Shown here piece by piece: positions 7,255 to 33,648 of a stretch of 33,744 bases of DNA. The first letter of the stretch is position 1. Each line of letters begins with the position of its first letter. The translations under genes and the position numbers were made by a program. The notes beneath the pieces were generated by a model. It was not told the DNA's origin, searched no databases, and saw nothing but the letters and a program-made list of their open reading frames with translations. This stretch comes from Clostridiales bacterium (lineage in GTDB: Bacteria > Bacillota > Clostridia > Oscillospirales > Oscillospiraceae). The DNA is taken from contig JAQXKZ010000009.1 of assembly GCA_029010715.1 (NCBI GenBank), positions 1-33,744 on the forward strand. The letters are read 5' to 3'.

Positions 7255-7311
7255 CCGCCCCCGTCCGCGCGATATACGCGTGTACCGGAAAGGTTTCAGC
7301 CGCCCGATTGC

Positions 7312-7331
7312 GTGTTGAAAAGCTTCAACAC
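7312..7331 (-). other. 8-bp hairpin in the S10-operon leader
   Basis: Perfect 8-bp stem with a 4-nt loop, upstream of the terminator-like hairpin. A small GUAA-loop hairpin (7399-7410) lies near the expected transcript start. These may be parts of a ribosomal-protein-binding leader RNA. Confidence 0.4.
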
Positions 7332-7422
7332 CGGACATACTCCACGGAAGTTACCTCGGTTCCCCGAGCAATCTCCCGCTTCATCGCATAATACGCCCGT
7401 GCTTACGCACTCGCGCTTCACT

Positions 7423-21531: not shown

Positions 21532-21630
21532 ATGATTTCACGGCAACCGGTACACCACCGTCTGTGAGCCGTAGCATAGCAATTGCGGCAGCTTGTAAGC
21601 TTTTTTATAAAACGGAAAAGGAGCAAGATT

Positions 21631-22545
<915 letters not shown>

Positions 22546-22572: not shown

Positions 22573-22604
22573 AGGGCCTGCTGCATAATGCAGCAGGCCC
22601 TTTC
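22573..22604 (+). terminator. Terminator after psuG
   Basis: Perfect 13-bp stem (22573-22585 with 22589-22601) and a 3-nt loop; only three T residues follow on the plus strand. The stretch 22605-22805 holds no gene I can support. Confidence 0.75.
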
Positions 22605-22805: not shown

Positions 22806-22834
22806 TTGAAATAAGGCCGCATTCGCTGTATAAT
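22806..22834 (+). promoter_or_regulatory. Promoter of the glycan/ATP-grasp operon
   Basis: TTGAAA (22806-22811), 17-bp spacer and perfect TATAAT (22829-22834). It lies 37 bp before the first gene, and no other strong promoter or internal terminator is visible before 32585, so all eight genes may depend on it. Confidence 0.85.
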
Positions 22835-22871
22835 ACTATGAATTCGTATTTACGTTTCCGGAGGCAAGCCT

Positions 22872-23864
22872 GTGGGTAATAATGAATGCATGGTTTCTGT
22901 CCTGTGTACGGCCTACAACCACGAAGCATATATACGCGACGCGCTGGAGAGCTTTCTCGCGCAAAAAACCGACTTTCCTTTTGAAATAATAGTGAATGAC
23001 GACGCATCCCCTGACGGTACCGCCGCCATAATAAAGGAATATGCCGCAAGATACCCGCAGATCACGGCATTCTGTCAGTCCAAAAACCTGTATTCCCAAA
23101 ACATAAATATTGAGGACACCGTCATGCTCCCGGCCTCCCACGGTAAATATATCGCATTCTGTGAAGGCGACGATTACTGGTCCGACCCGGAAAAGCTTCA
23201 GCGTCAGGTGGATTTCATGGAGGCACACCCGGAATACTCCGCCTGTACCCACGACACGGTGATACACTGCTGCGACGGCTCAGAGCCGGACAAGCTGTAT
23301 TCCAGGGTACATTGTCCGGAAAGCGGCGACAGGGACATCCAATTCACCGATATAATAAAGGGTATGGCCCACGCATATCACACAAGCTCTCTTCTGTTCA
23401 GACGCGAATATGCTTTCGGTCTGCCTGATTATTTTTACTGCGGGGCGAAATACGGCTTCGCAGATTATCCGCGCGCGCTGTTCCTCAGTCTGAACGGCCG
23501 CATACGTTTTATTGACCGGCCTATGTCCGTATACCGTATGCTCAGCAATCCTACCTCATGGAGCTCAAATTTGGATGCTCAGTATAAGAAACTGCACCAT
23601 TTCGTCTATGGGCAGACACAAATGCTCAGACTGCTGGCGGCACATACTCCCGAAGCATTGCAGCAGACAGTCAGTCAGGCTATCACCGAGCGGGAGTTTG
23701 AGCTGATGTACATAGAGGGACGTGACCGTGAGCAGCGCCGCGCCCCCTACAGAGAGCTGCTCAGAAGGCAGCCCTTCAGCTACAGGCTGAAAAACTTTAT
23801 AAAAAGCTACTTGCCCTTTCTGCAGCGTATCCACCGCCGCAGAAAAGGGTTTGGAGAAAACTGA
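22872..23864 (+). CDS. Family 2 glycosyltransferase (copy 1)
   Basis: A 330-residue GT-A fold enzyme that moves a sugar from a nucleotide sugar to a lipid-linked or other acceptor. VLCTAYNHE at the N-terminus, the nucleotide-binding NDDASPDG (Asp43/44) and CEGDDYW (Asp100/101, metal site) are visible. The C-terminal 40 residues are strongly basic and could bind the membrane. The start is GTG at 22872, 8 nt after GGAGG. It is closely similar to the gene at 26340, and its stop overlaps the flippase start by 1 nt. Donor and acceptor are unknown. Confidence 0.9.
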   Translation: MGNNECMVSVLCTAYNHEAYIRDALESFLAQKTDFPFEIIVNDDASPDGTAAIIKEYAARYPQITAFCQSKNLYSQNINIEDTVMLPASHGKYIAFCEGDDYWSDPEKLQRQVDFMEAHPEYSACTHDTVIHCCDGSEPDKLYSRVHCPESGDRDIQFTDIIKGMAHAYHTSSLLFRREYAFGLPDYFYCGAKYGFADYPRALFLSLNGRIRFIDRPMSVYRMLSNPTSWSSNLDAQYKKLHHFVYGQTQMLRLLAAHTPEALQQTVSQAITEREFELMYIEGRDREQRRAPYRELLRRQPFSYRLKNFIKSYLPFLQRIHRRRKGFGEN

Positions 23865-25315
23865 TGAACAGCAGACAAACCGTCTTTTCCAACCTGATAT
23901 GGCGCTTCATGGAGCGCTGCGGGGCACAGCTCGTGTCCTTCGTGGTTTCCGTCGTGCTCGCACGCCTGCTGGAGCCGGAGCTATACGGTACCATCGCGCT
24001 GGTCACGGTAATCACCTCAATCCTGCAGGTGTTCGTCGACAGCGGTATGGCAAACGCCCTCATACAGAAAAAAGACACCGACAATCTGGACTACTCCTCG
24101 GTTTTCTACTTCAACGTCGCGTTCTGCCTCGTGCTCTATGCAGGGCTGTTTTTCGCCGCGCCGCTGATAAACCGCCTGTACGGTCACACAGACCTCGTGC
24201 CGGTAATACGTGTGCTCGGCCTGACGATAGTCGTAGCCGGCGTGAAAAACGTGCAGCAGGCCTATGTGGCCAAGACGATGCAGTTTCGGCGCTTCTTCTT
24301 CTCGACTCTGGGCGGAACGATTTTTTCCGCGGCGGTCGGAATCACAATGGCCTACTCCGGCTTTGGCATCTGGGCGCTCGTCGCGCAGCAGCTGCTGAAC
24401 GTGACGGTGAACACGGCCATACTATGGCTGACCGTCGGCTGGAAGCCTCAGCGCATTTTTTCCTTCAAGCGTCTGGGCGGTCTCATATCCTACGGATGGA
24501 AGCTGCTGGCTTCCGCGCTGCTCGATACCGTATATCTCAAGCTGTATCAGCTTGTGGTCGGGCTTAAATATACCTCATCCGACCTTGCCTACTACAACAA
24601 GGCCGATCAGCTCCCACTGCTCGTTGTGGAAAACATAAATTCCTCAATAGACAGCGTGCTGCTGCCGGTGCTTTCCGCAGAGCAGGACAGGAAAGAAACC
24701 GTCCGTGACATGACACGGCGCGCCATAAAAACCAGCACCTATATAATGATGCCGATGATGGCAGGTCTTGCCGCGTGCGCGGAGCCGCTCGTCCGTCTGC
24801 TGCTCACCGAGAAGTGGCTGCCATGCGTGCCGTATATGCAGGTGTTCTGCATCGTCTATGCCTTCTACCCGCTGCACACGGCAAACCTCAACGCCATCAA
24901 GGCAATGGGGCGCAGCGATATATTTCTCAAGCTGGAGATAATAAAGAAAATCATAAGCACCCTCCTGCTTGTAGCCTCCATGGGCATAAGCGTCTATGCG
25001 ATCGCGCTGAGCCAGCTTGTCTCCTGCGTTACCTCACAGCTTATAAATTCATGGCCAAACAGAAAGCTGCTGGATTACAGCTATCTGCACCAGCTGCGGG
25101 ACATGGCTCCGGCCATACTGCTGTCGCTGGCAATGGCGCTTTGCATACGGCCCGTCGTAAGCATAGGCTTCAGCGACTGGACGACTCTTCTGATACAGAT
25201 ACCGGCCGGAGTTGCCATATATGCCGCGCTCTCGGCCCTGTTTAAGGTGGACAGCTTCCGCTTTCTGCTCGATGTAGCCCGGAAGATGCTTGCCGGAAAA
25301 CATTCCAGGGGCTGA
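23864..25315 (+). CDS. Wzx-like polysaccharide flippase (MOP superfamily)
   Basis: A 483-residue membrane protein of the polysaccharide transporter (PST/Wzx) type. It has about 12-14 hydrophobic segments; ARLLEPELYGTIALV near the start and GIWALVAQQLLNV in the middle are typical of this family. The C-terminal part contains YAFYPLHTANLNAIKAMGRSD. It probably flips the lipid-linked product of the neighbouring glycosyltransferases. No polymerase, chain-length regulator or initiating phosphoglycosyltransferase is in the operon. The gene begins by overlapping the upstream stop (TGATG). Confidence 0.9.
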   Translation: MNSRQTVFSNLIWRFMERCGAQLVSFVVSVVLARLLEPELYGTIALVTVITSILQVFVDSGMANALIQKKDTDNLDYSSVFYFNVAFCLVLYAGLFFAAPLINRLYGHTDLVPVIRVLGLTIVVAGVKNVQQAYVAKTMQFRRFFFSTLGGTIFSAAVGITMAYSGFGIWALVAQQLLNVTVNTAILWLTVGWKPQRIFSFKRLGGLISYGWKLLASALLDTVYLKLYQLVVGLKYTSSDLAYYNKADQLPLLVVENINSSIDSVLLPVLSAEQDRKETVRDMTRRAIKTSTYIMMPMMAGLAACAEPLVRLLLTEKWLPCVPYMQVFCIVYAFYPLHTANLNAIKAMGRSDIFLKLEIIKKIISTLLLVASMGISVYAIALSQLVSCVTSQLINSWPNRKLLDYSYLHQLRDMAPAILLSLAMALCIRPVVSIGFSDWTTLLIQIPAGVAIYAALSALFKVDSFRFLLDVARKMLAGKHSRG

Positions 25316-25347
25316 GCAATCATTACAACAAGAAAAGAGACATAGAA

Positions 25348-26328
25348 ATGAAAAGTAAAACCGCGCTGGTCACGGCTATCGGCTCCGTTGCCGGAGATAT
25401 AGTAATAAAGAATCTGCGAAAGCTGGGCTACCGTGTGGTAGGCTGTGATATCTATCCCAGAGAATGGCTCGTCGACGCCTACAACGTCGATGCTTTCTAT
25501 CAGGCTCCGTATGCAACGGACACTGAAAAGTATCTGGAATTTATAAAAACTGTCTGTGCCGGGGAAAATGTTTCCTGCATACTTCCTCTGATCGATGTAG
25601 AGGTCGACGTCTTTAACCACAACCGCGGCTGGTTTGAGGCAAACGGCGTGTGCCTGTGTATTTCTCCGGTAGAAACGCTGGACATCTGCCGGGATAAAAA
25701 GCGTTTTGCCGAATTCGTGGATATGAACTGTCCGTTTCTCACCACTATTCCCACCGCTTTTCTGCGCGATCTGGCCGGTGAGCCGGGCTGGCCTTTCCCG
25801 GTCGTGTGCAAGCCCTATAACGGGCGCAGCAGCCTCGGCCTGCATTATATCCATGACAAAGAGCAGTGGAAAGGCTTCACTGCCTCCGCAGACAGGGACG
25901 TCTATATAGTCCAGCCCTATATCAAGGGCGCCAGGATAGTTGCCGATACCGTGTGTCAGGGCAAAGGCGGCGAGGCGGCCGTCGTTCTGCGCAGAGAGCT
26001 TATCAGCACCGTCAACGGATGCGGTACCAGCGTTTATCTGTACAGGGAACCGGAGCTGGAGGACTGCTGCCGCCGTCTCGCATCCGCACTCGGCATCACG
26101 GGCTGCGTCAATTTTGAATTTCTGCTCGACGATGACGGGCGTTATCACTTAATCGAATGCAATCCGCGCTTCTCCGGCGGCTGCGAATTTACCTGCATCG
26201 GCGGATATGACTGCGTGGCAAACCACATGCGCTGCTTCAGCGGAGAACCCATAGACAAACCCGGTTACGGCCCAAACAGATTCATAGCCAGAAAATATGA
26301 AGAATATATAACAATGACCGAAGAATAA
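25348..26328 (+). CDS. ATP-grasp ligase 1 (CarB-like)
   Basis: A 326-residue ATP-grasp enzyme. The N-terminal Rossmann-like domain (TALVTAIGSVAGDIV) is followed by the ATP-binding VVCKPYNGRSSLG (Lys155), and the magnesium motif E270-C-N272-P-R274 with FSGG follows. Such enzymes join a carboxylate to an amine or other nucleophile through an acyl-phosphate. The full canonical ExNxR motif makes activity likely. In this operon an amide-forming step on the glycan precursor is a reasonable guess; the substrate is unknown. Its ribosome binding site is weak (AAGAAAAGAG). Confidence 0.86.
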   Translation: MKSKTALVTAIGSVAGDIVIKNLRKLGYRVVGCDIYPREWLVDAYNVDAFYQAPYATDTEKYLEFIKTVCAGENVSCILPLIDVEVDVFNHNRGWFEANGVCLCISPVETLDICRDKKRFAEFVDMNCPFLTTIPTAFLRDLAGEPGWPFPVVCKPYNGRSSLGLHYIHDKEQWKGFTASADRDVYIVQPYIKGARIVADTVCQGKGGEAAVVLRRELISTVNGCGTSVYLYREPELEDCCRRLASALGITGCVNFEFLLDDDGRYHLIECNPRFSGGCEFTCIGGYDCVANHMRCFSGEPIDKPGYGPNRFIARKYEEYITMTEE

Positions 26329-26339
26329 CAGGAGGCTGT

Positions 26340-27320
26340 ATGTCGTCTGACTGCATGGTTTCCGTACTTTGTACGGCCTATAATCACGAAGAGTATATAC
26401 GCGACGCGCTGGAGAGCATAGTCAGCCAGCAGACCGATTTTCCCTTCGAGCTGCTGGTCAATGACGACGCCTCGACCGACGGCACCGCCGCGATAATCCG
26501 CGAGTACGAGGAGAAATACCCGGATATCGTGCGTCCGTTCTATCAGCCAAAAAACCTGTATTCACAGGATATAGACATTTACTATGCCGTGTTCTTCCCG
26601 AACGCCCGCGGCAAATACACGGCCTTCTGCGAGGGCGACGACTACTGGACCGACCCGACCAAGCTGCAGCGTCAGGTCGATTTCATGCAGGCGCACCCGG
26701 AATACTCCGCCTGCGTTCATAATACCCTGCTGCACTACTGTGTCGGCGACCGCGCGGACGAGGAGCTGGTAAGGCACGACGGCGACTGCGACGTTGAATT
26801 TGAGGATATTCTCCCCGGCATGAACACCGCCTGGCACACAAGCTCACTGCTGGCAAAGACTGAGCTGCTGGCAAGCCCGCCCGACTTCTATTACATCGCC
26901 GCGGAATACGGCTTCGGCGACTACCCATACGGTATATGGCTGCGGCACAACGGGCCGGTACATTTCATCAACCGGACCATGTCCGCCTACCGCATATGCA
27001 GCAATCAGGACGCCTGGAGCAGCGGCGTGGAGGGGCAATACGACAAGCTCACACGCTTTATGACCGGCGCGGTCTCGATGCTCGAAGCCTACAGGACTCA
27101 TGTGGCGGACCCGGAGCTTCTGGAGCTGGTGGACAGCAACATCCTCAAGTGGAAGTTCCAGCTGCTCTACACTCAGGGCAGGGACCGTGAGCTGCGCAGG
27201 CCGCCCTACAACAGCATACTGAAAACAAAGCCTCTGCGCTTTCGTATAAATAACGCCGTAAAGTGTACCTTCCCGTGGCTGCACAGGCTCTACAGGAAGA
27301 TAAACGGCTACGGCGAATGA
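26340..27320 (+). CDS. Family 2 glycosyltransferase (copy 2)
   Basis: A 326-residue paralogue of the gene at 22872. The first 110 residues are nearly the same (VSVLCTAYNHE, NDDASTDGTAAII with Asp42/43, CEGDDYW with Asp100/101), while the acceptor-side half differs more. That pattern suggests two transferases with one donor type and different acceptors or linkages. It has an AGGAGG site 6 nt before the ATG. The region between (flippase, ATP-grasp 1) suggests a duplication of a transferase gene within the operon. Confidence 0.9.
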   Translation: MSSDCMVSVLCTAYNHEEYIRDALESIVSQQTDFPFELLVNDDASTDGTAAIIREYEEKYPDIVRPFYQPKNLYSQDIDIYYAVFFPNARGKYTAFCEGDDYWTDPTKLQRQVDFMQAHPEYSACVHNTLLHYCVGDRADEELVRHDGDCDVEFEDILPGMNTAWHTSSLLAKTELLASPPDFYYIAAEYGFGDYPYGIWLRHNGPVHFINRTMSAYRICSNQDAWSSGVEGQYDKLTRFMTGAVSMLEAYRTHVADPELLELVDSNILKWKFQLLYTQGRDRELRRPPYNSILKTKPLRFRINNAVKCTFPWLHRLYRKINGYGE

Positions 27321-27335
27321 AAAGGAAAACCCTGA

Positions 27336-28532
27336 ATGAAAAAGCTCTTACTTCTGGGCGGCGCCCGGTATCTGCTGCCTGTCATTGAAGAGGCGCACCG
27401 GCTGGGTATATACGTGATCACCTGCGACTATCTGCCCGACAACGCAGCGCATAAGTTCTCCGACGAATACCGCAACGTCAGCATCACAGACAGGGACGCC
27501 GTGCTTGAAACAGCCCTCGCTCTTGGGATAGACGGAATAATGTCCTTCGCCTGTGACCCGGGCGTCACGACCGCGGCATATGTGGCCGAGAAGATGGGAC
27601 TGCCGTTCGCCGGCTCCTATGAGGCCGTGTCCATACTGCAGAACAAGGGCCGTTTCCGCCGCTTTCTGGCCGAGCACGGCTTCAATGTCCCCTGGGCCAG
27701 GAGCTACACCGAAGCTGACGAGGCTCTGGCTGACGCCGCAGCCTTCCGCTGGCCGATGATAGTCAAGCCCGTGGACTCCGCCGGCAGCAAGGGCGTCACG
27801 CGCGTGGACGGTCCCGGAGAGCTCGCGGCGGCCATCGCCCGCGCGAAGGAGTTTTCGCTCTGCGGCGGATTCATAATCGAGCAGTTCATACAGCAGCAGG
27901 GCTCCTCCTCCGACAGCGACTGTTTCTCCGTAAACGGCGAACTGCGCTACTGCTCCTTTGACGATCAGCTTTTTGACCGCAGTGCCGAGAACCCTTATAC
28001 GCCCGCGGCCTATATCTGGCCCTCGACCATGCCTGAATGGGCGCAGAAGGAGCTGCGGGGCGAGCTGCAGCGGCTCATAACGCTGCTCGGCCTGAGGACC
28101 TCGTTATACAACATTGAGACACGTCTCGGCACGGACGGCAGGACATACATAATGGAGGTATCCCCGCGCGGCGGCGGCAACCGCCTGAGCGAGGTCCTCG
28201 CCATGGCCGCCGGGACGAACCTGATCGCCAACGCCGTGAAAGCCGCGGTCGGACTGCCGGCAGACGACATGAATGACCCGGTATATAACGGGCACTGGAC
28301 CGAAATCATCCTGCACAGTGACCGTGACGGACGCTTTAAGGCGCTCGAAACAGATGAGGCGCTCGAAAGCGCCGTCGTGCAGCGCGACCTGTGGGTAAAG
28401 CCCGGCGACACGGTCGAGAGCTTTTCCGGCGCGAACAAGGCCATCGGTACGCTCGTCATGAACTTTGCCAGCCGCGCCGACGCGGAGAAATACATGGCCG
28501 ACAGCAGCTGGTACAAAGTCGCCGTCGAGTAA
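27336..28532 (+). CDS. ATP-grasp ligase 2
   Basis: A 398-residue ATP-grasp protein with an N-terminal preATP-grasp domain (KKLLLLGGARYLLPVIEEA), the ATP-binding IVKPVDSAGSKG (Lys144), and YNIETRLG before the metal motif E274-V-S276-P-R278 with GGGN. The canonical Asn is replaced by Ser here, a change seen in other members of this type as far as I recall. The C-terminal 80 residues form an added domain. Its start shows AAAGGAA upstream. Paralogue of the next gene by length and N-terminus. Confidence 0.86.
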   Translation: MKKLLLLGGARYLLPVIEEAHRLGIYVITCDYLPDNAAHKFSDEYRNVSITDRDAVLETALALGIDGIMSFACDPGVTTAAYVAEKMGLPFAGSYEAVSILQNKGRFRRFLAEHGFNVPWARSYTEADEALADAAAFRWPMIVKPVDSAGSKGVTRVDGPGELAAAIARAKEFSLCGGFIIEQFIQQQGSSSDSDCFSVNGELRYCSFDDQLFDRSAENPYTPAAYIWPSTMPEWAQKELRGELQRLITLLGLRTSLYNIETRLGTDGRTYIMEVSPRGGGNRLSEVLAMAAGTNLIANAVKAAVGLPADDMNDPVYNGHWTEIILHSDRDGRFKALETDEALESAVVQRDLWVKPGDTVESFSGANKAIGTLVMNFASRADAEKYMADSSWYKVAVE

Positions 28533-28556
28533 GAATAATTATACGGAGGACACACC

Positions 28557-29834
28557 TTGAAAAAACTTCTGATGTTGGGTACAAGCTATGGCACCTGCGA
28601 GATACTGCGCTATGCCAAAAGCCAGGGAATATACACTATTGTCACCGATTACATGGAGCCTGAGGAGTCCGTCGGGAAACTCATCAGCGATGAGTACTGG
28701 ATGATAAACACCGGCGAGCTTGACACGCTCGAGGCCAAGTGCCGCGATGAGGGCATAAATGCCGTAGTATGCGGCATAAGCGAGTTCAACCTCGAAATGT
28801 GCATGGAGCTGTGCAGAAGGCTCGGCCTGCAGTGCTACTGCACACCAGAGGCCTGGCACTTCTCCCGTGACAAGGACGACTTCAAGCGTCTGGCCCGCTC
28901 GCTGGGCGCACCGCTGCCGGACGACTACTATCTCTCCTCTCCCCCAACGCGCGAGGAGCTCGACGCGGTCAGGTACCCCGTCGTGGTCAAGCCCGTCGAT
29001 CTCAGCTGCAACCGCGGCATAAGCTACTGCCACAATGAGCAGGAGCTGCTCAAAGCCTGCGCTCTGGCACGCTCAATGTCAAAAAGCCCCAAGCTCATCG
29101 TTGAGCGCATGCTCCGCGGCGAGGAGTGGTACAGCTTCTATGCCTTCGCCGAGGGAAAAATCAGCCTCATGTCACTGTGCGCGATGTACTCCCAGCCCGG
29201 CGAGCCGAAAAACTGCTACTCCATCACCTCCACCGTATCCAATAATGTCGAGCGCTATGTCAGCGAGATCGACCCGTACATACAGAAGGTGCTGCAGGCA
29301 GTCGGCTGTCGCGAGGGCATCGGCTGGGTACAGGTCATGCTCGACGAGGACGGGCACTTTTACATAATCGAGATGGGCTACCGCCTCGACGGCGACATGA
29401 TGTACGTGCCCTTAAAGAGCCTGCTCGGCTTCGATACGGTCGCATGGCTCGTCGGCTACGCGCTCGGCGAGCGCAACGACCCCGCCATGCTGCCGCCTCC
29501 ACAGACCAAGGCCTTCAGGCGCTGCGGCTCCAGCTACATGCTCTGGACAAACAACGACGGTAAGATCGCCTCGATAGAAGGTCTCGACAGGATCGCCGCC
29601 ATGCCCGGGGTCACCGTCGACTCCCTCGCACACGTCGGAGACGAGCTCACCAAATATCAGCCGCTCGGCGATATCCTGTTCGCCACCGACGATATCGACG
29701 AAACCTGCCGCTTTATCCAGACGGTGAACGAAACCGTGAAGATCACAAACGACCGCGGCGAAAACGTGCTCATTTATTACACGGATTTTGACTATCTCAA
29801 AAAGGTCTACCGGGAAGGCCTGGAGGGCAAGTAA
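28557..29834 (+). CDS. ATP-grasp ligase 3
   Basis: A 425-residue ATP-grasp protein. It starts KKLLMLGTSYGTCEI, like ligase 2, has VVVKPVDLSCNRG (Lys145) and WVQVMLDEDGHFYIIE, but the metal motif reads E272-M-G274-Y-R276, with Gly in place of Asn. Whether it binds two magnesium ions normally is open. The start is TTG at 28557, 7 nt after CGGAGGA, and the reading starts as the family expects (MKKL). C-terminal extra domain as in ligase 2. Its substrate is unknown. Confidence 0.83.
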   Translation: MKKLLMLGTSYGTCEILRYAKSQGIYTIVTDYMEPEESVGKLISDEYWMINTGELDTLEAKCRDEGINAVVCGISEFNLEMCMELCRRLGLQCYCTPEAWHFSRDKDDFKRLARSLGAPLPDDYYLSSPPTREELDAVRYPVVVKPVDLSCNRGISYCHNEQELLKACALARSMSKSPKLIVERMLRGEEWYSFYAFAEGKISLMSLCAMYSQPGEPKNCYSITSTVSNNVERYVSEIDPYIQKVLQAVGCREGIGWVQVMLDEDGHFYIIEMGYRLDGDMMYVPLKSLLGFDTVAWLVGYALGERNDPAMLPPPQTKAFRRCGSSYMLWTNNDGKIASIEGLDRIAAMPGVTVDSLAHVGDELTKYQPLGDILFATDDIDETCRFIQTVNETVKITNDRGENVLIYYTDFDYLKKVYREGLEGK

Positions 29835-29874
29835 GCCTTCCGCGTTTATCCGGTTTGAAATGGAGTGATGTACA

Positions 29875-31401
29875 TTGCGCGCGCAGATAGATAAAAAGCG
29901 GTTTATTCCTGTAGTCGGCATCATCGCCGTGGTGCTGATACTGGTGTCGGTAAGTCTGGAATCGGTCCAGGACGCCGTCGACAGAACGTATGCCTTTTTC
30001 TCCGGACAGTTTGACTGGCTGTTCGTGGCGTCCAACCTCGCGGCTTTCCTGTTTTCGCTGTGGATCGCCTTCGGTCCCTATGCGAAAGTCAGGCTCGGCG
30101 GGGAAAACGCCCGGCCGGAGTACAGCAAGTTCTCATGGATAGCCATGATGTTCACCACGAGCTGCAGCGCCGGACTGATCGTCTTCGGTTTCATTGAGAC
30201 AACAATATATTCTTCCACCGCCGTCCCCCTGCACGCCGAGCCGTTTTCCATCGAGGCATATGAGTACGCCGCTATGTACACCCATTACCACTGGGGGCTC
30301 AACGCGTGGTCGCTGTACGTCCCGGCCTCCGTCGCCGTGGGCTATATTCTCTACAACCGCCGGGAAAGCCAGATAAACATGAGCTCCGCCTGCTCTCCGA
30401 TTCTGAAGGGCCAGAGCAACCGGCTGACCGGCTGCCTTATAGACGTCTTCGGCACCTTCGGCGCCATAGCCGCGCCCGTGACTTCCATGGGTCTCGGCAT
30501 GCCGCTTCTGACGCTGCTGCTGCAGAATATATTCGGCATCCCAGACGAATACGTCAGGCCCCTGCAGATAATCATCCTCGTGATATGGGTCGCCATGTTC
30601 GGCACCAGCGTTTATCTCGGGCTGCAGAAGGGAATAAAGACTCTCAGCGACGTGAACGTATACATGGCCTTTGCCTTTATGCTCTTTGTCGGCTTTCTGG
30701 CCGGTATTTTCGACGTGCTGCGCGCGGAGCTGAACGCACTGGGGCTGTATCTGCAGAACTTCATACATCTGATTACATACACCGACCCCTACGGCGACGG
30801 CCAGTTTGTCCGCAGCTGGACAGTCTGGTACTGGGCCTGGCTGATAGTATACATGCCGCTGATGGGCGTGTTCAACGCAAGAGTGTCAAAGGGACGTACT
30901 CTGCGTGAGATCGCACTGGGCCAGATGGTCTGGTGCTCCCTCGGATGCTGGGTGGCAATGTCCACGCTCGGAAACTACGCCATAAAGATCCAGACCAGCG
31001 GCACGGCGGACATCGCCGCCGTACTGCAGAACTCAGGTCAGCCCGCAGCAATCCTTGCCATACTCCGGACCATGCCCTGCCCGAAGCTGATGATGGTAAT
31101 AGTCGCGGTGCTGTGCTTCGTGTTTATGGCGAGCACCGTCGACTCCAGCGCCTTCGTCGCAGCAGAGACGACCTTCATACACTCCGACAGCGAGATACAC
31201 GCTCCGCGCTGGTGCCGCGTGTTCTGGGCCGCTGTCATCTGCATCATCACCTTTGTCCTGCTGGAGGTCGGCGGCTTCAACGCCGTCCAGGTACTGGCGA
31301 TACTGATAGGGCTTCCGCTGTCGGTACTGATGTTTGTCGTCATCGCCTCAGCGGTAAAGGCCCTAAGAGAAGATTACAGAAAAACGGCAGAGCGTAAGTA
31401 A
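29875..31401 (+). CDS. BCCT-family transporter, CaiT-like
   Basis: A 508-residue, 12-TM transporter of the betaine/carnitine/choline family. The signature lies at residues 315-326 (WTVWYWAW then LIVY), followed by NARVSKGRTLRE. Where BetP has GMGIG, this has TTSCSAG, which resembles CaiT; HWGLNAW and YTDPYGDGQF also recall CaiT, a sodium-independent antiporter. Two of the Trp residues of the BetP aromatic box appear as Leu323 and Tyr326. No cai genes are present. The start is TTG with GGAG 9 nt upstream. Role in a glycan operon: perhaps supply or exchange of a quaternary amine. Confidence 0.88.
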   Translation: MRAQIDKKRFIPVVGIIAVVLILVSVSLESVQDAVDRTYAFFSGQFDWLFVASNLAAFLFSLWIAFGPYAKVRLGGENARPEYSKFSWIAMMFTTSCSAGLIVFGFIETTIYSSTAVPLHAEPFSIEAYEYAAMYTHYHWGLNAWSLYVPASVAVGYILYNRRESQINMSSACSPILKGQSNRLTGCLIDVFGTFGAIAAPVTSMGLGMPLLTLLLQNIFGIPDEYVRPLQIIILVIWVAMFGTSVYLGLQKGIKTLSDVNVYMAFAFMLFVGFLAGIFDVLRAELNALGLYLQNFIHLITYTDPYGDGQFVRSWTVWYWAWLIVYMPLMGVFNARVSKGRTLREIALGQMVWCSLGCWVAMSTLGNYAIKIQTSGTADIAAVLQNSGQPAAILAILRTMPCPKLMMVIVAVLCFVFMASTVDSSAFVAAETTFIHSDSEIHAPRWCRVFWAAVICIITFVLLEVGGFNAVQVLAILIGLPLSVLMFVVIASAVKALREDYRKTAERK

Positions 31402-31451
31402 ACGGTCAATGCCGCGGCATGTGCCGCTCACACGGCAGAATGGAGATAGCT

Positions 31452-32552
31452 ATGTCTGAAACAATAAACGTCACACGTTCATCACTTCCAGGCTTTGAGG
31501 AGTACTGCAGCGAGATACGCAGTATCTGGGACAGCCACTGGCTCACCAACATGGGAGACAAGCATCAGCAGCTCGAATCCGAGCTGAAAAAATATCTCGG
31601 CGCGGCAAATGTGGCGCTGCTTACAAACGGCCACCTCGCGCTGGAAAACGTAATCGAGGCCATGGAGCTGAAGGGCGAGATCATCACCTCCCCGTTCACC
31701 TTCGCATCAACGACTCACGCCATAGTCCGCTGCGGCTGTACGCCTGTATTCTGCGACATCAATCCCGAAGACTACACCATTGACCCGGCCAAAATCGAGG
31801 CTTTGATAAGCGACAAGACGGTCGCGATCCTGCCCATACATGTCTACGGCAACCTCTGCGACGTCGACGCTATCGACCGCATAGCAAAAAAGCACGGCCT
31901 GAAGGTCATCTATGACGCGGCCCACGCCTTCGGCGTGACGAAAAACGGCGTCAGCTCCGCCGTATTCGGCGACGCGGCCATGTTCTCCTTCCACGCCACC
32001 AAGGTATTCAACACCATCGAGGGCGGCGCGCTCTGCTTCAGGGACGAGACTCTGAACCAGCGCATCAAGGATCTGAAGAATTTCGGCATTCAGGGGCCCG
32101 AGGACGTGAAATATGTCGGCGGCAACGCGAAAATGAACGAGTTCTGCGCCGCAATGGGCCTGTGCAACCTGCGCCATCTCGAGGTCTGGATCGAGCAGCG
32201 CAAAACCGTTGACGAACGCTACCGGGAGCGTCTCGGCGGCGTGCCCGGCATACGCCTCAACGCCCCGCAGAAGGGCGTAAGGTCGAACTACGCCTACTTC
32301 CCCGTCGTATTTGACGGATATAAATACACGCGCGACGAGGTATTTGACCGTCTGGGCGGGCATGGCGTCATCGCCAGAAAATACTTCTACCCCATCACCA
32401 ACTCGTTTGAGTGCTACCGTGGGCGGCCCGGCTTTGACCCTGACAGTACCCCTGTCGCAAAGCACATCGCCGAATGCGTGCTGACCCTCCCCCTCTACCC
32501 CGACCTGAGCCTCGCCGAGGTCGACCGCATCTGCGATATCATTCTCGGGTAG
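31452..32552 (+). CDS. DegT/DnrJ/EryC1-type sugar aminotransferase, VioA-like
   Basis: A 366-residue PLP-dependent aminotransferase that makes 4-amino (or 3-amino) nucleotide sugars. SHWLTNMGDKHQQLE near the N-terminus, YDAAHAFG (Asp155, contacts the PLP nitrogen) and FHATKVFNT with the PLP-binding Lys184 are clear. The pattern recalls VioA, which forms dTDP-4-amino-4,6-dideoxyglucose, but the exact sugar cannot be read from sequence. No nucleotide-sugar dehydratase is in the window. The ATG at 31452 has GGAGA upstream. It is the last gene of the operon and would supply the amino sugar that the ATP-grasp enzymes may acylate. Confidence 0.9.
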   Translation: MSETINVTRSSLPGFEEYCSEIRSIWDSHWLTNMGDKHQQLESELKKYLGAANVALLTNGHLALENVIEAMELKGEIITSPFTFASTTHAIVRCGCTPVFCDINPEDYTIDPAKIEALISDKTVAILPIHVYGNLCDVDAIDRIAKKHGLKVIYDAAHAFGVTKNGVSSAVFGDAAMFSFHATKVFNTIEGGALCFRDETLNQRIKDLKNFGIQGPEDVKYVGGNAKMNEFCAAMGLCNLRHLEVWIEQRKTVDERYRERLGGVPGIRLNAPQKGVRSNYAYFPVVFDGYKYTRDEVFDRLGGHGVIARKYFYPITNSFECYRGRPGFDPDSTPVAKHIAECVLTLPLYPDLSLAEVDRICDIILG

Positions 32553-32584
32553 AGCCGCCTTTCGGGGACTCATATAAGTATTAT

Positions 32585-32614
32585 GCGGCAGTTTTCTGAA
32601 AAGGAAGCTGCCGC
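32585..32614 (+). terminator. Hairpin at the end of the glycan operon
   Basis: A 12-bp stem (32585-32596 with 32603-32614; two G-T pairs) with a 6-nt loop. Few T residues follow, so termination may be partial. The stretch 32615-32817 shows no gene or clear promoter. Confidence 0.6.
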
Positions 32615-32817: not shown

Positions 32818-33648
32818 ATGATCAGGAAATTTCAGAAGGCAGACAGTGAGCAGGTGATGCAGATATGGCTGAACGGAAACACGGACGCACACCCTTTCAT
32901 TCCGAAAGAGTATTGGGAATCCAATTTCGGGATGGTGCGGGAGCAGCTTTTGCAGACGGAGGTTTTCGTATGTGAACTTCATGGAGACATACAGGGTTTT
33001 ATCGGTATTGCAGACGCTTATATCGCAGGGATTTTTGTGGACAAAAGGCATCGTTCGCATGGAGTCGGGGAGAAGCTTCTGGACTATGTAAAACAAAAAT
33101 ACTCTTCTCTTTCATTGGACGTATATCGGAAAAACAACCGGGCTGTTCTTTTTTATTTAAGGGAGGGTTTTTCGATACTGTCAGAAAGACTTGACGAAGC
33201 CACAAGAGAGGCCGAATATACAATGGTTTGGGATGTGAAAAATGGAACGGATAAAGCAATTATCTGCAGTTCAGAAGCAGACAGCAGCTATTTACACGAA
33301 AAACTGAGGGAGTATAACGCCCGTTATATGCGTGAATCCGGAGATTTTAATTTTCACATCGAGGATAAGGGCAGGATCATTGGTGGCATAGTGGCCGGGG
33401 GGCTGGGGGATACACTGGAAGTTGAGTTTCTGTATGTCGAAGGACAATACCGGGGTAAAGGAATCGGACGGAGGCTGCTGGCTCATGTGGAGGCATTGGC
33501 CCGGCAAAATGGCTTGAAGCGCATTCTGCTAAACACCTACAGTTTTCAAGCGCCTGAGTTCTACAGGAAGCTGGGGTATACAGAGATACTAAAACTATCT
33601 CCCGCTTTTGACGGCTTCGCACAGTCATACTTTATAAAAGAACTTTAG
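32818..33648 (+). CDS. Tandem-GNAT N-acetyltransferase
   Basis: A 276-residue protein with two GNAT domains. The first (residues 1-140) has IAGIFVDKRHRSHGVGEKLL, with the acetyl-CoA-binding RxxGxG-like loop, and FYLREGF; the second (about 150-276) has EVEFLYVEGQYRGKGIGRRLL and APEFYRKLGY. Domain 1 recalls YiaC/YjaB-type acetyltransferases; substrates are unknown. ATG 32818 follows AGGAGG; a longer reading upstream is unsupported. Base composition is visibly lower in GC and richer in AAA, ATA and TTT codons than the genes to the left, which suggests recent acquisition. Confidence 0.85.
   Translation: MIRKFQKADSEQVMQIWLNGNTDAHPFIPKEYWESNFGMVREQLLQTEVFVCELHGDIQGFIGIADAYIAGIFVDKRHRSHGVGEKLLDYVKQKYSSLSLDVYRKNNRAVLFYLREGFSILSERLDEATREAEYTMVWDVKNGTDKAIICSSEADSSYLHEKLREYNARYMRESGDFNFHIEDKGRIIGGIVAGGLGDTLEVEFLYVEGQYRGKGIGRRLLAHVEALARQNGLKRILLNTYSFQAPEFYRKLGYTEILKLSPAFDGFAQSYFIKEL

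Follow-up and report, generated by a model that had tools for sequence, protein, structure and literature searches.

What does an operon that combines genes for glycan assembly with three ATP-grasp ligases (AG1, AG2 and AG3) and a BCCT-family carrier attach to the cell surface, and what does the carrier contribute? The window, by which we mean the entire 33,744-nucleotide stretch of Clostridiales DNA analysed, had initially been annotated as containing eight genes on one strand with short gaps behind one strong promoter; the BCCT gene was listed in that annotation and assigned no role. An ORF check of the window confirmed this layout, recovering all eight reading frames at 22872–32552 on the plus strand (Table 1) with intergenic gaps, in operon order, of −1, 32, 11, 15, 24, 40 and 17 nt, the last one (BCCT to aminotransferase) being counted to the first ATG of the aminotransferase ORF at 31419. 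Reading of the sequence indicates a likelier start at the ATG at 31452, which is preceded by GGAG; this start is our choice for the table, and the aminotransferase analyses used 31419 or 31434. The presumed promoter, a consensus match only, is the best of 10 promoter sites found, shuffled sequences giving 6.5 ± 2.6 sites; the second-best site (10/12) lies on the opposite strand. A strong hairpin stands between the upstream pseudouridine-5′-phosphate glycosidase gene (PsuG) and the operon. Termination at the hairpin behind the last gene is not established because a clear T run is missing.

Table 1. Features of the operon and its flanks, in positions of the window
Feature	Position	Strand	Evidence
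13-bp hairpin	22573..22601	.	terminator-like, 13 pairs, 9 GC, listed for − strand
Promoter match, sigma-70-type	22806..22834	+	TTGAAA-17-TATAAT, 11/12
GT2, first	22872..23864	+	PF00535 3.7e-21
Wzx-type lipid-linked saccharide flippase	23864..25315	+	PF13440 2.5e-94
AG1, ATP-grasp with PylC-like N-terminal domain	25348..26328	+	PF15632 2.1e-15, PF21360 8.7e-8
GT2, second	26340..27320	+	PF00535 4.2e-19
AG2, ATP-grasp related to L-amino acid ligase	27336..28532	+	PF13535 1e-10; 3vot 9.1e-18
AG3, ATP-grasp with L-amino acid ligase fold; carrier-pairing gene	28557..29834	+	
BCCT-family carrier, separate subfamily	29875..31401	+	PF02028 1.4e-129
DegT/DesI-type nucleotide-sugar aminotransferase	31452..32552	+	PF01041 1.9e-94; TIGR04427 297 bits, sub-cut-off
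Hairpin 3′ of last gene	32585..32614	+	13-nt arms, 85% complementary

Among the glycan-type genes, the flippase scored 257 bits against an O-glycosylation flippase model with a cut-off of 720. The aminotransferase, originally described as VioA-like, carries a DegT domain (PF01041, 317 bits), and its membership of this family is upheld; VioA itself proved too specific and was rejected, as the best NCBIfam model is that of DesI (TIGR04427, 297.4 bits, below the cut-off of 650) and the best solved relative is 2po3. The SFHATK motifs of both proteins align and contain what we take to be the PLP lysine. The predicted product is a 4-amino-4,6-dideoxy sugar; RmlB is present in the genome of the window (G000:C17; 504.6 bits, cut-off 365.1).

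AG2 and AG3 are 25% identical to each other, and the C-terminal domain PF18603 stays below its cut-off of 29.4 bits in both (25.9 and 21 bits, respectively). A fold search with the predicted structure of AG3 revealed the L-amino acid ligase fold among the best 50 entries listed, an assignment which leaves room for families outside those entries. The sequence identity of AG3 to the L-amino acid ligase BL00235 (3vot) is only 17%, and a Gln in AG3 replaces the Glu of AG2 and 3vot at the aligned position which we take to be the first metal-site position of ATP-grasp enzymes; the metal-site pattern used gave a match in 94 of 120 proteins and no information for the other 26. AG2, by family, and AG3, by family and modelled fold, are candidate ligases of the L-amino acid type. 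The initially proposed lipid-linked glycan operon is partly supported, namely in its predicted 4-amino-sugar aminotransferase and its ligase-type ATP-grasp enzymes.

Besides gene content, families and the modelled AG3 fold, the analysis yielded as its strongest signal the pairing of AG3 with the carrier, which is observed both as adjacency and as presence across genomes. In 14 of 22 loci, AG3 has as its neighbour, directly or one gene off, either a BCCT or a BCCT relative of short or divergent form, and eight of nine genomes without a BCCT at AG3 encode a short BCCT relative unlinked elsewhere; in G1591 (L005), which contains AG3, no BCCT relative was detected genome-wide. The unlinked short relative, form B, was found in none of 298 AG3-negative family genomes, within a survey of 300 genomes whose single positive, G174, is very probably identical to G1599 of the AG3 set (same contig coordinates). 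AG3 was likewise absent from all 29 control BCCT loci, a set from which weak or fragmentary matches in G134 (sub-cut-off), G198, G212, G269 and G282, as well as G211:C177, were left out. Chance adjacency was set aside on these control loci and genomes. Close AG3 relatives occur in Oscillospiraceae, Lachnospiraceae, Longibaculum, Eggerthellaceae and Bacteroidales. Since many AG3 genomes come from a single Ruminococcaceae clade, the above numbers lack independence.

The pairing is not rigid. In L025, the AG3 that has diverged furthest among the 22 stands with a BCCT of the window's type, which implies that the pair does not strictly co-descend, and full BCCTs are found away from AG3 in some AG3 genomes (G301; as a second copy in G304; G1592, L043). 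The other short form, form A, which accompanies AG3 in L016 and L017 (cultured Bacteroides stercorirosoris DSM 26884 and B. oleiciplenus), matches the BCCT family weakly: it stays under the Pfam cut-off in L016 and comes from a genome without a Pfam match in L017. Alignment of form A (A5) to full BCCTs by hhalign was not significant, and a structure prediction for the short forms, at pLDDT 46, was too poor to be used. BCCT carriers are known best for osmolyte import, according to the available parts of PMC11708041, and an ordinary osmolyte carrier might have entered the locus by accident; this appears highly improbable in view of the empty control loci and AG3-negative genomes, and of a TM8 motif in the BCCTs of the module that differs from that of control BCCTs. 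Both groups are also separated by profile scores (777–899 versus 132–280), a gap produced partly by construction since the profile was built from the module BCCTs.

PF02028 spans the carrier over its whole length (433 bits, cut-off 27, positions 2–485 of 485). The “CaiT-like” carrier of the initial annotation therefore stands as a BCCT and falls as a CaiT: the equivalog NF002887 (carnitine/gamma-butyrobetaine antiporter) gave 356.1 bits with a cut-off of 541, and DddT is the best solved relative, followed by CaiT. The NCBIfam subfamily TIGR00842 was not reached (383.5 bits, cut-off 407.55). The aromatic box for quaternary ammonium compounds consists, in TmaT numbering, of Trp146, Trp151 and Tyr154 of TM4 and Trp326 of TM8 (PMC11708041, available parts). 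Its TM4 half is kept in all seven module BCCTs, so that the window carrier resembles DddT, CaiT, TmaT and BetP in these residues as well as in its full-length family match. In contrast, the position of Trp326, which we read off the alignment, is occupied by Leu in the window carrier (WAWL instead of WAWW) and by either Leu or Tyr in the remaining six (overall Leu in 3/7, Tyr in 4/7), and the complete box is absent from the module BCCTs. Due to the lost TM8 tryptophan, a classical quaternary-ammonium cargo appears doubtful.

The same loss would suit a possible, though not favoured, alternative, in which taurine, an unusual amino acid or another amine or amino acid enters through the carrier and becomes part of a short, peptide-like cap that the ATP-grasp enzymes would assemble on the amino sugar, comparable to that of Clostridioides difficile type B flagellin; the imported compound would then provide either the amine component or an internal residue of the cap instead of a betaine-type acid, or would be amidated onto a uronic acid. 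While the conserved TM4 half argues against such a cargo, as do the BCCT cargoes named in the available parts of PMC11708041 (onium compounds, TMA, DMSP and ectoine) and the lack of any clear example of a taurine-transporting BCCT in a literature listing, several related loci are in line with it. A PALP gene in L028 and an Orn/DAP decarboxylase-type gene in L020 lie beside ligases or carrier, FemAB adjoins AG3 in L022, and L022 and L024 encode UDP-sugar dehydrogenases, which would allow uronic acids. In L029, a remote operon with comparable gene content, the AG3 relative is directly followed by a gene for an amino-acid permease. L029 is the only such case among the scanned neighbours of the six remoter AG3 relatives (L028–L033, 34–41% identity), none of which has a BCCT nearby, a point against the import-and-ligate proposal made below.

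This alternative draws on the C. difficile type B flagellin locus (CDR20291_0241–0247), which, in the available parts of PMC5207245 and PMC5207246, comprises GT2 genes, one ATP-grasp gene (PF13535) and an FdtB-like DegT-type aminotransferase; its Fuc3N is acylated via an amide with taurine-Ala-Gly, and the glycan of the ATP-grasp mutant stops at the trisaccharide. The claim that no described system has such a content was therefore too strong: both loci share GT2, ATP-grasp (PF13535) and DegT-type genes and, as predicted for the window, an amide-acylated amino sugar. They differ, as far as that source material goes, in the number of ATP-grasp genes (one versus three), in FemAB and ornithine-cyclodeaminase-type genes (none among the window's eight), in a 3-amino versus a predicted 4-amino sugar, and in the carrier, none being named for C. 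difficile. Type B modifies flagellin; no flagellin match was found among those 20 of the window's ORFs that were scanned. The coupling of AG3 to a carrier is the new result; in the open-access literature we found no report of an ATP-grasp gene paired with a BCCT gene in a glycan locus, nor did searches for O-antigens or capsules acylated with betaine or carnitine lead anywhere. In lic1-type phosphocholine loci, an importer of a small onium compound is encoded next to the genes that place this compound on a surface glycan. However, the lic1-type linkage is a phosphodiester, in contrast to the amide proposed here, and the kinase, cytidylyltransferase and LicD-type protein have no match among the eight genes.

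Is the ligated product glycan-bound at all? AG3 and the carrier might instead serve to produce or salvage a soluble small-molecule conjugate, such as a dipeptide-like osmolyte or signal, the glycan genes being adjacent through a common variable island behind PsuG. The AG3 fold is indeed that of dipeptide ligases, the content of the island 3′ of PsuG varies within the Ruminococcaceae clade, and in L018 the AG3–BCCT pair lies beside a helix-turn-helix gene with no profile match to other operon genes. We nevertheless consider this clearly unlikely, since outside that clade AG3 is found near glycan-type genes in loci without a PsuG match (L020, L022, L023 and L024), and AG3, Wzx and GT2 occur together in L005, L010 and L019 even though DegT, AG2 and BCCT matches are absent.

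Consistent with these data we propose, with a probability of about one half, that the operon directs the synthesis of a lipid-linked surface glycan and its decoration by import and ligation of an outside molecule. RmlB, encoded elsewhere in the genome, would form a dTDP-4-keto-6-deoxy sugar, which the DesI-type enzyme would convert to the dTDP-4-amino-4,6-dideoxy sugar. The BCCT carrier might import a small zwitterionic solute, betaine-like or an N-alkylated acid, whose carboxylate AG3 would activate with ATP to form an amide, the imported solute and the amino sugar being the simplest partners. Adding or joining additional acyl or aminoacyl groups may be the task of AG2 and, in the window operon, of AG1 as well. 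Glycan assembly on a lipid carrier would fall to the two GT2 enzymes, and flipping to Wzx. We infer here the import direction, the solute, the acceptor, the ligase order and the decorated polymer; the pairing itself suggests an import-and-ligate function, by which a zwitterionic solute is amide-linked to a glycan amino sugar.

That close AG3 relatives in several phyla accompany a betaine-type importer suggests that the cell attaches a small molecule from outside covalently to its surface sugars. A tentative and somewhat improbable extension is a spreading cassette in gut bacteria of several phyla, by which an amino sugar of capsule or wall glycans would receive, in amide linkage, a betaine-type acid (quaternary-ammonium or similar) taken up from the gut; the resulting zwitterionic coat would be an acyl counterpart of phosphocholine decoration and depend on host diet or secretions. 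If import and ligation are coupled as proposed, free gut solutes (betaines, taurine derivatives, unusual amino acids) would have a direct influence on the surface glycan chemistry of gut bacteria, which would in turn affect phage binding and recognition by the host. A class of ATP-grasp enzymes in polysaccharide loci whose substrates have so far been obscure would be tied to specific importers, and the substrate might be found via the carrier.

The acceptor need not be a DegT-made amino sugar, because AG3 also occurs in loci without a DegT profile match (L005, L006, L008, L010, L014, L015, L018, L019, L021 and L024); the DegT enzymes of L022 are only distant (29 and 26%), PseC being the leading model for one. 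The initial suggestion that the glycan decorates another polymer appears reasonable, as relatives' loci carry a phosphoglycosyltransferase (L022, L024), a Wzy-type (L022) or EpsG-type protein (L023) and RmlA/B/C-type genes (L023). The expected synteny gave a mixed picture. Strict conservation of the eight-gene order was discarded, AG2 and DegT hits being missing in many loci and close AG1 relatives unseen; related loci contain just low-similarity PylC-like ATP-grasp genes (L020, L025, L026 and L028), and AG1 is probably an accessory member of the operon. The order AG2–AG3–BCCT–aminotransferase is kept in L009, though not throughout the set.

The eight-gene run claimed in the initial annotation was recovered completely, as all eight open reading frames were found on the + strand in close packing, with gaps of -1, 32, 11, 15, 24, 40 and 17 nt between successive frames. 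Pfam matches identify two GT2 genes (3.7e-21 and 4.2e-19), a Wzx-type flippase (2.5e-94), three ATP-grasp proteins (AG1, AG2 and AG3), a BCCT carrier (1.4e-129) and a DegT aminotransferase (1.9e-94). The window corresponds to the entire contig C9 of a 2.0 Mb genome assembled in 59 contigs. The gene following the operon, with two GNAT acetyltransferase stretches, was kept out of it because of a gap of 265 nt.

Coordinates of features in the window and in related loci (L-numbers)
Feature	Locus	Position	Remark
Promoter match	window	22806	11/12; top of 10 sites in scan
Hairpin 5' of operon	window	22573-22601	
Hairpin 3' of operon	window	32585-32614	without clear T run
Gene with two GNAT stretches	window	32818-33648	3' of operon
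Conserved genes ahead of island	window	21583-22545 and upstream	
S10-Clostridia ribosomal protein leader	window	7308-7392	- strand; Rfam RF03136, 40.1 bits (cut-off 35.1)
AG3-BCCT pair	L018	8921-12797	behind 325-aa helix-turn-helix protein
200-aa locus-end protein	L006	12525-13127	cluster c4
~320-aa protein between AG2 and AG3	L016	8873-9820	
~320-aa protein between AG2 and AG3	L023	8854-9831	
Two GT2 stretches in one protein	L005	6200-8314	

A database search with AG3 yielded 827 relatives, 120 of which were listed, and a profile search with one genome per species yielded 23 loci. After adding the window and setting aside L026 and L027, which are contig ends from a single genome, 22 loci with flanks of unequal length were compared. 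A full BCCT carrier adjoins AG3 or lies one gene off in seven of them (window, L009, L018, L020, L022, L023 and L025), a divergent relative, form A, does so in four (L016, L017, L021 and L024), and a short relative, form B, adjoins AG3 in three (L006, L011 and L013). No carrier was found beside AG3 in 8/22 (L005, L007, L008, L010, L012, L014, L015 and L019); these eight come from Clostridia or Ruminococcaceae assemblies and share one type of island. Form B exceeds the Pfam cut-off for BCCT (39 bits versus 27 in L006; likewise above it in the genome search), and its alignment with full BCCTs spans 362 columns (probability 75.6, E 2.4e-5). The form A match is weaker (27.9 bits in L024, barely above the cut-off, and 19.5 in L016, below it), its hhalign comparison with full BCCTs is not significant, and the genome of L017 contains no Pfam BCCT match.

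A BCCT match is present in 13 of the 14 AG3 genomes searched and in 7/8 of a second set; the genomes of L009, L023 and L025 each hold exactly one, the gene beside AG3. Nine genomes have an AG3 locus lacking an adjoining carrier (the eight loci and L026/L027), and eight of these bear an unlinked form B gene elsewhere, the exception being G1591 (L005). Within the stretches examined, some cut by contig ends, AG1-3, DegT and Wzx are all absent from the surroundings of these unlinked genes, and GT2 is represented by a single weak match (L040). One of the nine, G1599, with its AG3 in the glycan locus L014, also bears the AG3-BCCT pair of L018. As background, BCCT matches occur in 33/300 family genomes, two of the 33 being AG3-positive. 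Since the sole form B genome among the 300, G174 (very probably identical with G1599), has AG3, form B is found in 0/298 AG3-negative genomes (status set at E 1e-60) versus 11/14 AG3-positive ones (Fisher p 6e-18), and any BCCT match in 31/298 versus 13/14 (p 2e-11), relatedness being uncorrected in both comparisons. No BCCT match was obtained in four genomes that lack AG3 and belong to the same genus as the window.

As controls, 29 BCCT loci were taken from 26 of the 31 AG3-negative, BCCT-positive family genomes (at most ~5 kb per side, shorter at contig ends), and none has a profile match to AG1-3, DegT, Wzx or GT2. The AG3 genome G1592 (L043) also holds a non-module BCCT without such neighbours. 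The TM8 pattern of 30 control BCCT frames reads WAYW in 16, WAWW in 2 and otherwise in 3, nine being unreadable; WAWL appears in none of them and in 112/120 relatives of the window BCCT among the matches listed. According to excerpts of PMC11708041, the solute box of the carrier TmaT consists of Trp146, Trp151, Tyr154 and Trp326. Because the three TM4 residues (positions read from the alignment) are kept and the TM8 Trp326 equivalent is missing in all seven full BCCTs of the AG3 loci, their site is, as judged from the alignment, a remodelled half-box. The Trp326 position is occupied by Leu in the window, L009 and L025 and by Tyr in L018, L020, L022 and L023; the latter four also have Cys for Trp one position before and a TM3 Trp absent from the former three. 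The predicted cargo is probably a zwitterionic solute, though it may not be a trimethylammonium compound of the classical kind.

An import-and-ligate scheme is the simplest reading. The BCCT would import a carboxylated zwitterion, AG3 would link it to an amino sugar by ATP-dependent amide formation, and AG2 and AG1 might perform extension or further acylation of a glycan that the GT2 pair would assemble and Wzx would flip. The coupling of AG3 to BCCT-type carriers rests on data, and the identities of acceptor and cargo are those we infer. Against this reading stand AG3 loci without a DegT match, the L018 pair, which has no profile match to the remaining operon genes, and the lost TM8 tryptophan. 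The gene series of L029 runs GT2, Wzx, AG3 relative (41%), permease of the amino-acid type (PF13520, 1.7e-40), AG2 and DegT, the next gene reading as a putative RmlA. This permease is directly 3' of AG3, where the window and L009 carry the BCCT. Such an arrangement was seen in a single one of the six distant AG3 relatives, the other five having no carrier beside AG3 among the neighbours scanned. Other possible suppliers of an amino-acid-like substrate are the PALP-type enzyme encoded between the AG1- and AG3-type genes of L028, the decarboxylase-type enzyme 3' of BCCT in L020 and FemAB 3' of AG3 in L022.

The nearest characterised system found is the type B flagellin glycan of C. difficile. 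As described in excerpts of PMC5207245 and PMC5207246, taurine-Ala-Gly is the acyl group on its Fuc3N, and mutants of the ATP-grasp gene CDR20291_0245 halt at the trisaccharide. An ATP-grasp gene can thus be required for an amide-linked cap in a locus of the GT2-DegT kind. These excerpts name no carrier gene. The feature of the window operon regarded as new is the dedicated carrier-ligase pair.

AG3 is uncommon, occurring in 2/300 family genomes, 3/391 of a class sample, and 2/301, 4/299, 2/138, 1/43 and 1/119 genomes in families of other AG3-bearing genomes (centre genomes included), at a threshold of E 1e-60 that also admits relatives at 34-41% identity. Judged by AG3, the nearest named relatives of the window are assemblies of Oscillospiraceae/Ruminococcaceae, among them L009 (78%), which comes from the colon of a goat, and several with RUG names, which denote rumen origin. 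Because larger loci combine AG3 with a small phosphoglycosyltransferase (L022, L024), an EpsG-type (L023) or Wzy-type (L022) protein and RmlA/B/C-type enzymes (L023), gene content supports a decoration module that may serve different capsules or exopolysaccharides. The first metal-site position is Gln in AG3 proteins (94/94 pattern-matching among the 120), acidic in AG2 and the L-amino acid ligase structure 3vot, and Glu in the distant relative of L029. A ~320-aa protein between AG2 and AG3 in Bacteroidota (L016, L017, L021, L023), with no Pfam match in two members scanned, reads like a degenerate DegT-type enzyme. Ruminococcaceae-type loci form an island of variable gene content, preceded by conserved genes for a nucleoside-type ABC transporter and a pseudouridine-5'-phosphate glycosidase. 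Many close with a protein of 200 aa that has a hydrophobic N-terminal segment and gave no Pfam match in the single member scanned, and several have a single protein of ~675-820 aa in place of the two GT2 genes.
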